A stretch of 64,000 nt of DNA from Bacteroidota bacterium (GTDB lineage: Bacteria; Bacteroidota; Bacteroidia; UKL13-3): NCBI GenBank assembly GCA_947477885.1, contig CANJUD010000001.1:234632-298631 (forward strand), written 5' to 3'. Both the position numbers and the translations under genes were made by a program. Shown here piece after piece: positions 5,974 to 64,000 of this stretch. The notes below the pieces were generated by a model, which was given only the letters and a program-made list of their open reading frames with translations, was not told where the DNA came from and made no database searches. The stretch's first letter is position 1; the number at the start of each line of letters is the position of its first letter.

Positions 5974-6112
5974 CTTCCTTATAAGTGCAAATATTTTTAC
6001 CTCGCCATCCTAAATTTTTTTCCAACTTTATATCATACTTTTAAATTATAGATTTGGGGTTTTCTCAATATTGACTTTTTATTTGCTATAATTGCATGCT
6101 AAATTCAGGGAA

Positions 6113-8425
6113 ATGAATATAAAAACAATAAAAAATCTTCTGTTTGTTACACTTTTTTGTGCAGCATCCCTGCGAGTTTGTTCTCAATCGGATATTGATT
6201 TTGACAAATATACAACTTTAAAATCTTCGGGTAAACTACCAGAAGATATTACCAAACTATCCATCGATAAATACAAAGAAGAATTAGCCAAAATTAAGCA
6301 AAAAGATTTGCCTAGATCTGAACGCAAGTTGGAACAAAAATTTCAGCTAGACGCAAACTATTCGATTGACCGCATGCTTTTAAGCGGAAGAGTATTGTGT
6401 AATGATCCTTTATCAATATATGTAGCAAAAGTAGCCAAAGAGATATTAAAAAACGACCTTGAAACTTATGAAAAACTTAGGTTTTATACCGTACGATATA
6501 CCCGTGTTAATGCATTTACTACACCCAGTGGAATTATATTTATTAATATAGGTCTGCTGGCACAGTTAGAGAATGAAGCACAACTAGCCTATATTCTTTG
6601 TCATGAAATAACACATTATAAAAAACAACATTCATTGTTAGGGTTTAAATTTGAAAATAAACTAGAAAAGAAAATATCTAAAAGTAACTACCGCAATAGT
6701 GGACAGGATAATTTTTTAACCAAATGTGCTTTCAATAAGGAACAGGAAGTTGAAGCAGATGAAGAAGGCTTTATGTTATATAAAAAATCGGGATATAGCT
6801 TGGCATCATTAGATGGTGTTTTTGATGTATTACAATTTGCCAATTTGCCTTTTGATGAAGTACCTTTCAACAAACGATTTTTAGAAGACAATACTTTAAA
6901 ATTTCCTAATGAATTTCAATTGGTTGACAGCTTATTGAAACCTGTTGGCCAAGACGATGACGACGATGACGAAGAATCGACACATCCATCTATTCGCAAA
7001 AGAAGGAAGTTGCTAGAAAATATGTTGGAAGGCCTTAGCAACAAAGATCGTAAAAACTATATAGTATCTAAATCGGAGTTCGAATCTACGAGAAAAATTG
7101 CACGTTTTGAATTGCTTCATTTATATTTGCTTAATCACGATTATGAGTACGCATTATATAGTGCTTTTATATTGAGTGAAACTGACTCCAATAGTTATTA
7201 TATAAATAAAACCATCGTAAAGAGTTTATATGCTCTTACTAAAATATCGGGCAAAGAAGAGTCAGGATTTAAAGATATACATACCGATTATGAGAAAATA
7301 GAAGGAGCATCAGGGGCTTTATATTATTTGATTGAAAAGTTACATGATGAGCCCATTGCATTGAATGTGCTGGCATTGAAAAAAGCTTGGAAATTAAAAT
7401 TAAAACATCCTGACGATGAAGAGTTGGAGAAAATAACCAATGAATTATTTATGTTGCTCATTAAAGAAAACAAAGCAAGTTTTTCTGATTTCGAAGATTA
7501 TAAAAATGATGAAAAAGGACCAGTAACTGCCGAGAAAAAAGTAGAGGATGAAGAACCAGTTAAAAAAAGTAAGTATAATAAAATTAAAAAAGCTAAAAAG
7601 GAAACTGCAAGCAAATCGGGATATAATAAATCATTTGTATATGCCGGGATGACCGATTTGGTTAAAGATCCTGAATTTAGAAAAGCATTTAAGAAAGCAG
7701 AAAATATTGTATTAAAAGTTACCAAAAAAGAAGATAGCGATACCAAACTAAAAAAGGAAAAAAATAACGAAGATGGAGGTGACGATGGTGAAGAAATAAC
7801 AGCAGCAACAGAACCTATTAATAAAGTAATCGTATCTGAGCCATTTTATTATAAAGTAGATTTGCGCAAAAAGGAATCTTTTAAACAGCAAGAAAGTGAA
7901 AGAGCTCTTGTTAATTTAGATGAAAAAATATCGAGGTTAAGCGATAAAGCTGATATAAAAGCGGTGAGATATAATTCCAAAACATTAACCGCTGATCATG
8001 TAGATGTGTTAAACAATATTATGCTGATTAATGATTATTTGCGAGACAATAACCAAAATGAAGAAAGTAATTTAATAAAAGTAGATTATAAAGGTATTGC
8101 AAAACTTATCCAACAAAATAATACACCTTACTTAATGAACATGGGAATTATATATGCAGTTGAAGACCATAACCCAGGAGAGAGGACATTGCATTATTGT
8201 CTGTGTTTTGCTACCTTTGGATTATATACACCAGTTTTAATTTACGAATTAATCCGTCCTAATTTTGTTACCTACATCATATCAGAAACAATTGATCTGA
8301 GAACGGGGAAATATGTATATAATTCTGTTAAAAAAATTAACAATAAGGATAAGGATTATGTAATAGAAATGCATTTATATGATATGCTATTACAAGTTAA
8401 ACAAAATAAAACCCAAGATAATTAA
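6113..8425 (+). CDS. M48-family metallopeptidase with long C-terminal extension
   Basis: HEITHYKKQHS zinc motif and EVEADEEGF; ORF track begins at a TTG at 6092, but ATG at 6113 is followed by a signal peptide. Confidence 0.8.
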   Translation: MNIKTIKNLLFVTLFCAASLRVCSQSDIDFDKYTTLKSSGKLPEDITKLSIDKYKEELAKIKQKDLPRSERKLEQKFQLDANYSIDRMLLSGRVLCNDPLSIYVAKVAKEILKNDLETYEKLRFYTVRYTRVNAFTTPSGIIFINIGLLAQLENEAQLAYILCHEITHYKKQHSLLGFKFENKLEKKISKSNYRNSGQDNFLTKCAFNKEQEVEADEEGFMLYKKSGYSLASLDGVFDVLQFANLPFDEVPFNKRFLEDNTLKFPNEFQLVDSLLKPVGQDDDDDDEESTHPSIRKRRKLLENMLEGLSNKDRKNYIVSKSEFESTRKIARFELLHLYLLNHDYEYALYSAFILSETDSNSYYINKTIVKSLYALTKISGKEESGFKDIHTDYEKIEGASGALYYLIEKLHDEPIALNVLALKKAWKLKLKHPDDEELEKITNELFMLLIKENKASFSDFEDYKNDEKGPVTAEKKVEDEEPVKKSKYNKIKKAKKETASKSGYNKSFVYAGMTDLVKDPEFRKAFKKAENIVLKVTKKEDSDTKLKKEKNNEDGGDDGEEITAATEPINKVIVSEPFYYKVDLRKKESFKQQESERALVNLDEKISRLSDKADIKAVRYNSKTLTADHVDVLNNIMLINDYLRDNNQNEESNLIKVDYKGIAKLIQQNNTPYLMNMGIIYAVEDHNPGERTLHYCLCFATFGLYTPVLIYELIRPNFVTYIISETIDLRTGKYVYNSVKKINNKDKDYVIEMHLYDMLLQVKQNKTQDN

Positions 8426-59489: not shown

Positions 59490-59518
59490 CAATTGTGTGT
59501 ACACTGTGGGCACAATTG
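59490..59518. repeat. 29-nt palindrome copy B (intergenic)
   Basis: CAATTGTGTGTACACTGTGGGCACAATTG; 11 Watson-Crick plus 2 G-T of 14 pairs. Confidence 0.75.
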
Positions 59519-59537
59519 AATATTTAACCTTAATTTT

Positions 59538-59566
59538 CAATTGCGAACGCAGTGCATTCGCAATTG
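59538..59566. repeat. 29-nt palindrome copy A (intergenic; arms extend to 59535-59569)
   Basis: CAATTGCGAACGCAGTGCATTCGCAATTG; 13 of 14 pairs. Confidence 0.9.
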
Positions 59567-59729
59567 AAATCAGATAGTTATAGAGTCTATGGTTGGTGTC
59601 CCCACCGACCGGCCCCCATTGTATATGTTAATTTCTTTGTGAATACATTATGGATTCTTTGTCGCCTTACATCATTATTATATATAAAATGTTATACTAA
59701 GTTTGTTCTTTAAACTTATATAATATTAT

Positions 59730-60788
59730 ATGAAACAAGACAAACTTGAATTAAAAGATGCCTTAGTAAGCGAAATTAAAACCCTTATTGAGCAAAGCAA
59801 ACAGCAGGTTGCAGTAACTGTAAATGCCACTATAACCATGCTTTATTGGCAGATAGGAAAGCGAATAAATACAGAAATACTTAAAGACCAAAGGGCTGAG
59901 TATGGAAAGCAAATTGTGAACGCACTGAGTGCACAATTAACAGCAGAATATGGAAATGGCTGGAGCGAAAAACAATTGAGACACTGTCTCCGCTTTGCAG
60001 AGACAATGCCAGAGGAACAAATTGTCTCCGCACTGCGGAGACAATTGAGTTGGACCCATATAAAGTGTATTATTTATCTCGAAGATGAGCTCAAACGCAT
60101 GTTCTACATAGAAATGTGTAAAATTGAAAAATGGAGCACACGAGCATTGCAAGAACGAATACAATCTATGCTTTACGAACGCACTGCCATTAGCAAAAAG
60201 CCCGAAGACATTATTAAAAATGAACTACAACAGCTTACAGAAACCAAGCAAATAACAGCCGACCTGGTTTTTAGAGACCCTTATTTTCTTGACTTTTTAG
60301 GACTGAAAGATGCCTATTCCGAAAGAGATTTAGAGACCGCAATTATTGCTGAACTGCAAAGATTTATTTCTGAGCTTGGGAGCGATTTCGCATTCATTGC
60401 CCGACAAAAGAGGCTGATGATTGACAGCAAAGATTATTATATTGATTTGCTTTTTTATCACCGAAAATTAAAATGCCTAGTAGCCATTGATTTGAAAATT
60501 GGCGAATTTGATGCGGCCCACAAAGGCGAAATGGAACTATACTTGGGCTTCCTCGAAAAATATGAAATGGTGGAAGGTGAAAACCCACCGATAGGTTTAA
60601 TACTATGTGCTGGTAAAAGCCCCGAGCATATCGAATTACTGCAACTGCACAGAAGCAATATTAAAGTGGCCGACTATTTTACCATTCTCCCCTCAAAAGA
60701 GATTTTATTGGATAGGTTGCATAAGGCAATTGAGATTGCACAAAATCAGTTCGCCGCGGTGGAAGGGGGATCTGATGTAAACGGGTAA
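59730..60788 (+). CDS. DUF1016 / YhcG-family PD-(D/E)XK nuclease
   Basis: GKQIVNALSAQLTAEYGNGWSEKQLRHCLRFAETMPEEQIVSALRRQLSWTHIKCIIYLEDELKRMFYIEMCKIEKWSTRALQERIQSMLYERTAISKKPE; nuclease domain YIDLLFYHRKLKCLVAIDLKIGEFDAAHKGEMELYLGFLEKYE. Confidence 0.92.
   Translation: MKQDKLELKDALVSEIKTLIEQSKQQVAVTVNATITMLYWQIGKRINTEILKDQRAEYGKQIVNALSAQLTAEYGNGWSEKQLRHCLRFAETMPEEQIVSALRRQLSWTHIKCIIYLEDELKRMFYIEMCKIEKWSTRALQERIQSMLYERTAISKKPEDIIKNELQQLTETKQITADLVFRDPYFLDFLGLKDAYSERDLETAIIAELQRFISELGSDFAFIARQKRLMIDSKDYYIDLLFYHRKLKCLVAIDLKIGEFDAAHKGEMELYLGFLEKYEMVEGENPPIGLILCAGKSPEHIELLQLHRSNIKVADYFTILPSKEILLDRLHKAIEIAQNQFAAVEGGSDVNG
59912..59940. repeat. 29-nt palindrome copy F (inside YhcG CDS)
   Basis: AAATTGTGAACGCACTGAGTGCACAATTA; 11 of 14 pairs; encodes IVNALSAQL. 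Confidence 0.65.
60019..60047. repeat. 29-nt palindrome copy C (inside YhcG CDS)
   Basis: AAATTGTCTCCGCACTGCGGAGACAATTG; inner 27 nt fully palindromic around central C; encodes IVSALRRQL. Confidence 0.9.
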
Positions 60789-60865
60789 TAATTTTACCTA
60801 GGCACAGTGCACTTGTAGAAAATACTGGAATGCTCTAAAAACAAAACTTAAAACAGAAGGAAGTG

Positions 60866-60890
60866 AGTTGTCCCAAAGCTTGGGACAACT
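60866..60890. repeat. 25-nt palindrome (inside BRO-like fragment)
   Basis: AGTTGTCCCAAAGCTTGGGACAACT; 11 of 12 pairs; encodes LSQSLGQL. Confidence 0.8.
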
Positions 60891-61021
60891 GAAAATGAAA
60901 TCAGTGGACGGCAAATTTTATATGACCGATGTTGCAGATACCATACAACTGCAACCTGAGTATGGTGGTGGTTATTCAAAAAGGCAAATGCAGCGGTATC
61001 GCCAGTTTTATAGAACTTTCC

Positions 61022-61050
61022 CAATTGCGTCCGCACTGCGGACACAATTG
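61022..61050. repeat. 29-nt palindrome copy D (end of YhcG-like remnant)
   Basis: CAATTGCGTCCGCACTGCGGACACAATTG; 13 of 14 pairs; encodes IASALRTQL. Confidence 0.9.
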
Positions 61051-61069
61051 AACGATTGGGATTAATTAT

Positions 61070-61098
61070 TAATTGCGAATGCAGTGCGTTCGCAATTG
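61070..61098. repeat. 29-nt palindrome copy E (intergenic)
   Basis: TAATTGCGAATGCAGTGCGTTCGCAATTG; its reverse complement matches copy A except at two positions. Confidence 0.9.
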
Positions 61099-61182: not shown

Positions 61183-62007
61183 ATGGATTGGACAGAAGTG
61201 GAAGTAGAATTAATCGTAGCTGATTATTTTCAAATGTTGGAGCGTGAACTCAAAGGAATTAAATATGTTAAATCAGACCATAATTCTCATCTCCAAACGT
61301 TAATCAAAAGAAATCGTGGGTCGATTGAATTTAAGCACCAAAATATTAGTGCCGTGCTAATAAATAAAGGATTGCCTTATATTAACGGATACAAGCCAAG
61401 GGGTAATTACCAACGTTTACTGGAAGAAAAGATAATTGATTATATAATAAAAAACCCTTCGATAGAAAAGGTGTTTTATGACTTTGCGAATAGGCAGATT
61501 AAAATTAATTCATCACAGCTAAATTATGATAATTGGAATGTAACTCCTCCAACTTCAACTAATGCAAATGAGCCAGAAGTGCATTACGACAAAGCTATAA
61601 AAAGGAATTATCTTGAAATGGAACAGCGAAATTCTTCTATAGGAATGGCTGGAGAAGAATTGGTATTTGATTATGAAAAGTGGGCTTTGAAAAATGCAGG
61701 ATTTCCAAAATTGGCATCAGCTATCTCATGGGTTTCTCAAGATCGTGGGGATGGTTTAGGTTATGATATTCTTTCCAAAAATATCGATGGGACAGATAAA
61801 TTTATTGAAGTAAAGACCACCACTCAGGGAAAGGATGCACCCATATTCTTTTCTAAAAGAGAAAATTCTTTCTCCGAAGACATGAAAGATTCTTATCACT
61901 TGTATAGAGTTTTTGATTTATTAAAACAGCCCAAAATGTTCAATAAGAAAGGTTCTTTTAAAGAAATATGTACATTTGAGCCTATTAATTTTAAAGGGTA
62001 TTTCTAA
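61183..62007 (+). CDS. DUF3883-domain protein (predicted nuclease-like, restriction-associated)
   Basis: IGMAGEELVFDYEKWALKNAGFPKLASAISWVSQDRGDGLGYDILSKNIDGTDKFIEVKTTTQ. Confidence 0.8.
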   Translation: MDWTEVEVELIVADYFQMLERELKGIKYVKSDHNSHLQTLIKRNRGSIEFKHQNISAVLINKGLPYINGYKPRGNYQRLLEEKIIDYIIKNPSIEKVFYDFANRQIKINSSQLNYDNWNVTPPTSTNANEPEVHYDKAIKRNYLEMEQRNSSIGMAGEELVFDYEKWALKNAGFPKLASAISWVSQDRGDGLGYDILSKNIDGTDKFIEVKTTTQGKDAPIFFSKRENSFSEDMKDSYHLYRVFDLLKQPKMFNKKGSFKEICTFEPINFKGYF

Positions 62008-62062
62008 AAATTTAAATATAATTATTTATGATATTAAATAAACTTGGTTTGTAATTCAATAA

Positions 62063-63364
62063 TTGAAATTAAAAAAAATAAAAAAGGTGCTTACAAAAAA
62101 ATTTAAATTCATAGATTTATTTGCAGGACTTGGTGGTTTTCATATTGCGTTGCATGATTTAGGACATACATGTGTATTTGCCAGTGAAATAAATGAAGAC
62201 TTGCGAGAATTGTATAAAGTTAACCATGGGGTTAAATGTAGTGGCGATATTAATGCAATCGAAGTTGAAAATATACCTAAGCATGACATAATTTGTGCGG
62301 GGTTCCCTTGTCAACCGTTTTCAAAAGCTGGAAAGCAAAATGGGCTGGAAGATGTAACTAATGGTAATTTCTTTAACAGAATTATGGAAATAGCAGACCT
62401 GCATAAACCAGAGTACATATTTTTAGAAAATGTTCCAAACCTGAAAGGGCATGATGATGGAAATACTTGGAATTATATCCATAAAAAGTTATCTGTTAAA
62501 TATGAAGTTGCGGAAAAAGTTATGTCTCCTCATACATTTGGAGTTCCACAACATCGGTCAAGAATATATATAGTTTGCAGATTAAGATCAAAAGGTGGCT
62601 TAAAGGATTTTGCATTTCCTGAGGGAGATTACAATGGAAAACTATCCATCAAATCTATAATAGAAAAAAAGCCAAAAGAGTATACAGCCATTAAGCCAGA
62701 TTCCTTAAATCATATAAAAGTATGGCAAGAATTTTTAGATCATTTACAACCAGCAGAGGTGCCAAGATTCCCGATTTGGGCCATGGAATTTGGAGCGACC
62801 TATCCTTATGAGGATTTAGCTCCTATCCAACTATCTGCGGATAATCTTAAAAAATTTAAAGGAAAATTCGGACAAAAAATTAAAGGCCATTCTTTTGATG
62901 AAATATTGGAATGCCTACCTATATATTCGCAGATAGACCAAAAAGAATTTCCACATTGGAAAAAATATTATATTAGAGCTAATAGAGAATTTTATCTAAA
63001 ACATAAAAAATGGCTAGACAATTGGATTCCGAAAATTCTTGATTTCGAAAACAGTCACCAAAAATTCGAATGGAATTGCGGTAATAAAATTCCGTTGGAA
63101 ATTAATGACAAGATTTTGCAATTCAGACCTTCGGGCATTAGGGTAAAGATGCCAGATTTTTCCCCAGCCTTAGTTTTAACATCAACTCAAATCCCAATAT
63201 TCCCTTGGCTGGGTAGATATATGACACCAAGAGAAGCCTCGAAATTACAGTGTATGGATGGACTCAAAGAATTGCCAAGTACAACGGCAAAGGCATTCCG
63301 TGCATTTGGCAATGCAGTCAATGTTTGTGTTGTTAAGAACATTGCTAAAAATTTATTGAAATAA
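62063..63364 (+). CDS. DNA (cytosine-5)-methyltransferase
   Basis: FIDLFAGLGGFHIALHDLGHTCVFASEI, ICAGFPCQPFSKAGKQNG, YIFLENVPNLKGHDDG, PQHRSRIYIVCRL, CMDGLKELPSTTAKAFRAFGNAVNV; TTG start. Confidence 0.95.
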   Translation: MKLKKIKKVLTKKFKFIDLFAGLGGFHIALHDLGHTCVFASEINEDLRELYKVNHGVKCSGDINAIEVENIPKHDIICAGFPCQPFSKAGKQNGLEDVTNGNFFNRIMEIADLHKPEYIFLENVPNLKGHDDGNTWNYIHKKLSVKYEVAEKVMSPHTFGVPQHRSRIYIVCRLRSKGGLKDFAFPEGDYNGKLSIKSIIEKKPKEYTAIKPDSLNHIKVWQEFLDHLQPAEVPRFPIWAMEFGATYPYEDLAPIQLSADNLKKFKGKFGQKIKGHSFDEILECLPIYSQIDQKEFPHWKKYYIRANREFYLKHKKWLDNWIPKILDFENSHQKFEWNCGNKIPLEINDKILQFRPSGIRVKMPDFSPALVLTSTQIPIFPWLGRYMTPREASKLQCMDGLKELPSTTAKAFRAFGNAVNVCVVKNIAKNLLK

Positions 63365-63369
63365 ATACC

Positions 63370-64000
63370 ATGGAAAAAATAAATACAATATCAATAAAAT
63401 TCAAGCCCGATTTTTATGGTCAATTTGAAAACTTTAGCAATAAGGTCTGGAATGTCATTGGCGAGTATGTTGATAATGCTTGGCAAAGCTATGATAGTAA
63501 TAAATCATTGCTGAAAAAGGCTCATAATGGAAAATACACATTAGAGGTTTACATTACTCTTGATAAAGAAAATGATCTAATTACAATCTCTGATAATGCG
63601 GCAGGTATAGATTATATAAATATCGTTCGTGCTTTAGAAGTAGCAAATACGCATTCAGATGTAAGTGGGTTAAATGAGTTTGGGATGGGGTTGAAGACTT
63701 CCTCAAATTGGCTTTCAAAATCATGGAACTTAAGAACGAAATCATTGGGCGAAAAAATAGAACGATATGTAGAGTTTGATCTAAAAAATGTAAAGGAAAA
63801 TAAATTAGAAGAATTACCAATAACGAGTAAAACTGCTGATGTTAATTCGCATTACACTATTATAACACTTACTAAACTTACTAAAAATGCACCATCAATC
63901 TATCAACTAGATAAAATCAAAAAACACCTAGCAAGTATATATAGAAAGTTCATTCGAAAGGGTGAAATGAAACTATATATTAATGACGAACTATTAATTT
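63370..64000 (+). CDS. GHKL-type ATPase (HSP90/MutL/MORC-like), partial at right edge
   Basis: MEKINTISIKFKPDFYGQFENFSNKVWNVIGEYVDNAWQSYD...ITISDNAAGIDYINIVRALEVANTHSDVSGLNEFGMGLKTSSNWLSKSWNLRTK: EYVDNAW, DNAAGI and NEFGMGLK motifs. Confidence 0.8.
   Translation, partial: MEKINTISIKFKPDFYGQFENFSNKVWNVIGEYVDNAWQSYDSNKSLLKKAHNGKYTLEVYITLDKENDLITISDNAAGIDYINIVRALEVANTHSDVSGLNEFGMGLKTSSNWLSKSWNLRTKSLGEKIERYVEFDLKNVKENKLEELPITSKTADVNSHYTIITLTKLTKNAPSIYQLDKIKKHLASIYRKFIRKGEMKLYINDELLI

Follow-up and report, generated by a model that had tools for sequence, protein, structure and literature searches.

Proteins of the MORC family are GHKL ATPases proposed to act as DNA remodellers in restriction-modification systems, and the third type of MORC operon defined by Iyer and colleagues in 2008 (PMC2292703) combines a MORC GHKL-S5 ATPase with an SF2 helicase bearing a Z1-type C-terminal region, an RE-fold protein with an E-D-ExK signature, a C5 methyltransferase and, in some relatives, Vsr. 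The operon described here is alike in these components, and differs in that AIPR is absent and an MTaX1 protein is present. The figure of Iyer, Abhiman and Aravind also names undefined X1-X3 domains, and MTaX1 may already be drawn among them.

Like the operon studied here, CglI and NgoAVII combine a DNA methyltransferase with a Z1-domain SF2 ATPase that must act with a nuclease partner; ATP hydrolysis by their N protein, which bears the Z1 domain, requires that partner and unmethylated sites, and site-specific cleavage depends on it (PMC4267653). Their nuclease is a PLD enzyme with a B3 domain, whereas ours is of the PD-(D/E)XK kind (DUF4420), and our operon has an extra MORC ATPase and MTaX1; it is related to the CglI/NgoAVII class, yet outside it. 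The mzaABCDE system, reported as validated (Gao 2020, as described in PMC9523054), likewise holds a MutL-like ATPase, a Z1 protein and a DUF4420-type nuclease in one operon, but it has AIPR (MzaE) and a sigma-like MzaA, both of which our operon lacks. The NCBIfam equivalog models match only weakly (17.6 bits against a cut-off of 850 for MzaB, 125.9 against 1500 for MzaC and 32.8 against 420 for MzaD), and membership in mzaABCDE was ruled out by these scores and the missing genes; mzaABCDE is a more distant relative.

Three core genes are also held in common with types I and II of a candidate Z1 - PD-(D/E)XK - cytosine methyltransferase defence system put forward in 2022 (PMC9523054). Its Z1 protein has 925 aa compared with 725 here, and its type I comprises six genes, with a link to DNA repair endonucleases. 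Our operon fits well into a known, poorly tested class, predicted from gene neighbourhoods since 2008, and the literature searched contained no experiments on a MORC-Z1-DUF4420 operon. Our additions are the exchange of AIPR for MTaX1 and settled operon borders. A compact, intact five-gene copy offers a route to how the bacterial counterparts of eukaryotic MORCs act on DNA, and lets one ask if a Z1 motor cooperates with a GHKL clamp in restriction.

A five-gene operon across the window edge

The window is a stretch of 64 kb, located in the host genome at G000:C1:234632-298631. The initial annotation had recognised near its end adjacent, co-directional genes for a DUF3883 protein, a C5 methyltransferase and a GHKL ATPase, the start of a MORC/MutL-like restriction-modification operon; ORFs and Pfam agree on all three, the third being cut by the window edge, and the arrangement is far beyond chance. 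Reading onward in the host genome, we completed the ATPase ORF, which is 3'-open at the edge, to 511 aa (ending at G000:C1:299536) and followed the operon for 4.8 kb beyond the window:

61183-62007, + strand: DUF3883/NOV_C protein (PD-(D/E)XK-type), 274 aa; Pfam PF13020, E 1.5e-22; GEE..D..EVK pattern in the sequence
62063-63364, + strand: C5 cytosine DNA methyltransferase, 433 aa, first gene of the conserved operon; Pfam PF00145, E 1.5e-63
63370-64000 (window edge), + strand: MORC-family GHKL-S5 ATPase, N-terminal 210 of 511 aa inside the window; HATPase_c_3, E 6e-12
G000:C1:299540-301717: Z1 helicase, 725 aa; Pfam Z1, E 3e-34
G000:C1:301719-302702: DUF4420 PD-(D/E)XK nuclease, 327 aa; Pfam, E 6e-34
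G000:C1:302712-303437: MTaX1 protein, 241 aa; PF20296, E 1.4e-20

The methyltransferase ORF has a TTG start, with an alternative GTG at 62087. Z1 and DUF4420 genes, both predicted to lie to the right, were met within 4.8 kb of the edge, and with the GHKL-S5 ATPase beside them and the methyltransferase the operon type is borne out. The prediction of an AIPR gene did not hold: none was found downstream in the host genome read past the operon, and MTaX1 stands in its place. As a control, AIPR was readily detected in a related operon (L066), which has the order Vsr - GHKL - Z1 - DUF4420 - AIPR - methyltransferase.

The order is C5 methyltransferase - MORC ATPase - Z1 - DUF4420 - MTaX1, with gaps of 3, 1 and 9 bp separating the last four genes and all gaps inside the operon falling within 1-9 bp; all five genes are full length in the host genome, with catalytic motifs intact. 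The gene 3' of MTaX1 encodes a protein that weakly matches Y1 (IS200-like) transposases, its match to REP-associated transposases being below the cut-off, and beyond it are core genes, the first of which, on the opposite strand, is read as a lytic transglycosylase gene. The conserved unit spans five genes, from the methyltransferase to MTaX1. A Bacteroidota-type promoter pattern had no match near the operon and showed no excess over shuffled sequence.

The DUF3883 gene had been taken as a 5' component of the operon, and we consider it unlikely that it is a functional sixth one, serving as a second nuclease or target-recognition subunit. It lies on the same strand, 55 bp upstream of the methyltransferase, and DUF3883 is a PD-(D/E)XK-type domain, listed among presumptive type II restriction enzymes in a survey of such systems in archaea. 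An operon of another type (L067:3932-9727, G412), with the order Vsr - C5 methyltransferase - GHKL with a Hypoth_Ymh domain - AAA ATPase - DUF3883, also joins a homologue to such genes. However, the 55-bp gap exceeds every gap within the operon, and no DUF3883 homologue adjoins the operon at any of 20 other loci of the same type where 1 kb or more of sequence precedes the methyltransferase (some are close relatives of each other), a neighbourhood count that rules it out as a conserved component; it is likewise missing from every other Z1 locus examined. Homologues elsewhere have defence-like settings, and also stand alone near gyrA (L069, L070). The initial annotation had proposed running defence-system models: the PADLOC candidate family PDC-S36 matches the DUF3883 protein over its full length (residues 2-273, E 4.3e-94), whereas the Mza equivalogs stay far below their cut-offs. 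The DUF3883 gene is probably a defence-island neighbour, outside the operon.

The same operon in other genomes

Homologous operons were drawn from genome contigs, searched genomes, plasmids and IMG/VR. All five genes occur in a single run on unrelated Bacteroidota contigs (L010, L012, L013, L020, L037 and L016, the last with a damaged methyltransferase start), and MTaX1 lies on the opposite strand in L036 and in L011, a contig that begins inside GHKL; the MTaX1 assignment held for 13 of 13 homologues. A four-gene core without MTaX1 is seen in L038, L063 and L064, on a Rathayibacter plasmid (L061) and on IMG/VR contigs (L084-L086, L088, L089 and L093). MTaX1 accompanies the other four genes in a close clade from Bacteroidota, L036 being the sole carrier outside that clade in a tree of Z1 proteins, and the four-gene cores are more distant operons; the basic mechanism therefore does not require MTaX1. 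Immediately 5' of the methyltransferase, the neighbouring gene varies between loci. Vsr adjoins the operon in L013 and L089, and such neighbours are expected for 5-methylcytosine systems.

Not all Bacteroidota copies are intact: in L014, L015, L017 and L095 GHKL is gone and the helicase region partly or wholly gone, so the system is often lost. These copies would fit a domesticated or decaying operon in which an active methyltransferase with idle partners does epigenetic marking only; for our operon we regard this as very improbable, since in the host genome the five genes are full length and their motifs intact.

Members of a protein family of ~170 aa sit in or against C5 methyltransferase genes:

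L014:1812-2333: ~170 aa family member
L015:9448-9960: ~170 aa family member
L016:1074-1580: ~170 aa family member
L017:5420-5935: ~170 aa family member
L034:9829-10335: ~170 aa family member
L095 near 6018-6527: ~170 aa family member
L096:2772-3278: ~170 aa family member

The family has no Pfam match, and its predicted fold resembles OkrAI/BamHI (Foldseek E 7.6e-4). In L014, L015, L017 and L095 the gene accompanies the loss of GHKL and the partial or total loss of the helicase region, and the remoter members L098, L099 and L101 occur by themselves. The small QLF protein was considered as a cognate restriction enzyme replacing the ATPase module and not adopted; the methyltransferase is truncated in most QLF loci. 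Matches to Rfam Flavo-1 (RF01705) flank the ~170 aa gene (L017:5304-5382, L017:5930-6009, L014:1710-1791, L034:10330-10408 and L096:3273-3351), in inverted orientation on its two sides in L017; the L014 match and the first L017 match reach the gathering score and the others fall below it. It is possible that Flavo-1 serves as the repeat-type terminus of some mobile cassette.

Conserved motifs and a proposed mechanism

The methyltransferase aligns with all of its motifs intact (FAGLGG, PCQPFS, ENV, QHRSR and GNAVN), and its nearest solved relative is M.HhaI (E 1.3e-47). The motifs EYVDNAW, DNAAGI and NEFGMGLK, from which the initial annotation had recognised the GHKL ATPase, are present, and their key residues, E32..D35N36, D75-x-A-x-G79 and E103-FGMG-x-K109, are invariant in 11 aligned homologues; from the sequence, K312 is likely the Lys finger. 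The S5 motif GLSLFRRGRVI of this protein fits the pattern GhXhhpXXRhl, which is satisfied in 11/11 aligned homologues with an invariant S5 core and which, in Iyer 2008 (PMC2292703), unifies and defines the MORCs; this motif places the operon in the third (Z1) type of prokaryotic MORC restriction-modification systems.

The Z1 protein carries GYVQSGKT, IDDEAD and TATP, and its motif DTIQQRCRFFG matches the third-type consensus DThhQXuRhFG at 9 of 11 positions and departs at two. Residues 65-716 are homologous to a Psychrobacter Z1 protein (24% identity, E 4e-27) whose operon has a CglI-like layout (methyltransferase-PLD nuclease-Z1). In DUF4420, the residues E150, D176 and E185-x-K187 are invariant in 11 aligned sequences, the E-D-ExK of the RE fold being present, and the literature searched holds no demonstrated nuclease activity for this family.

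We propose, with a probability of roughly 0.78, that these genes form a self-contained, ATP-dependent five-gene restriction-modification system from which DUF3883 and YhcG are separate, on the basis of gene content, gene order, conservation and intact catalytic motifs. We infer a division of labour with an anti-phage outcome, in which the methyltransferase would mark cytosines in a short host site and so protect host DNA. On unmarked incoming DNA, a complex of the Z1 motor and the DUF4420 nuclease, the presumed cutting engine by analogy with CglI/NgoAVII, would assemble with MTaX1 and MORC. MTaX1 would be the likely subunit that tells modified from unmodified sites, and a MORC dimer may be an ATP-driven clamp that closes on DNA. 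The complex would then move along or remodel DNA, activating DUF4420 cleavage of unmethylated invaders.

One published suggestion is that MTaX1 distinguishes modified DNA (PMC10853773). Sequence searches returned no solved relatives of Z1 or MTaX1. A structural model of MTaX1 (mean pLDDT 76) has as its top fold match SPARDA effector domains of the PD-(D/E)XK-like kind (E 5.5e-4, with a query TM-score of only 0.33), and Holliday-junction resolvases are also among the top matches, so that the model gives a hint only of a PD-(D/E)XK-like fold. We tentatively speculate that MTaX1 is a modification reader that replaced AIPR in one lineage, possibly with a PD-(D/E)XK-like fold whose active site was lost, and that the operon represents a distinct two-ATPase restriction class in which a MORC clamp and a Z1 motor are gated by a methylation reader.

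Because MTaX1 occupies the place of AIPR in the related operon L066, and the MzaB, MzaC and MzaD models do match weakly, the operon could instead act by abortive infection of the mzaABCDE type, with the AIPR toxin swapped for MTaX1, killing or stalling the cell with no cutting of phage DNA. We consider this improbable: the Mza scores are far under the equivalog cut-offs, neither AIPR nor the sigma-factor-like MzaA is in the operon, the Z1 protein of AIPR-bearing L066 groups with that of L065 on a separate branch (support 100), and the MTaX1 model has no clear toxin active site. Restriction by the five-gene system is the reading that we prefer.

The surrounding island

The island sits between rho and the lytic transglycosylase gene (G000:C1), and looks like stacked defence genes. 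The same interval in a second genome of this genus (G001, contig C9, L043), whose contig edge matches the 3' end of rho, holds a gene with a GmrSD_N domain and a further gene for a C5 methyltransferase; each of the two genomes is a draft assembly. With restriction genes that differ between two members of a single genus, the interval is likely a defence hotspot.

The initial annotation had read DUF3883 beside a YhcG nuclease as a variant composition of the operon, and this reflects the island neighbourhood: a remnant of a second DUF1016_N (YhcG-type) gene (window 60868-61065) separates YhcG from DUF3883, which are separate items of one island. Since YhcG is separate and DUF3883 is not conserved, the proposed composition is not operon structure. 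Near-palindromes of 29 bp (CAATTGNNNNCGCASTGCRNNNNCAATTG) lie at window 59490-61098: on either side of the YhcG/DUF1016 gene, within it in frame, and in the remnant next to it. At no more than 2 mismatches, this palindrome occurs at five places in the 3.1 Mb genome, all of them in this stretch, and similar palindromes are found within two other YhcG genes (L044:2818 and L045:4902).
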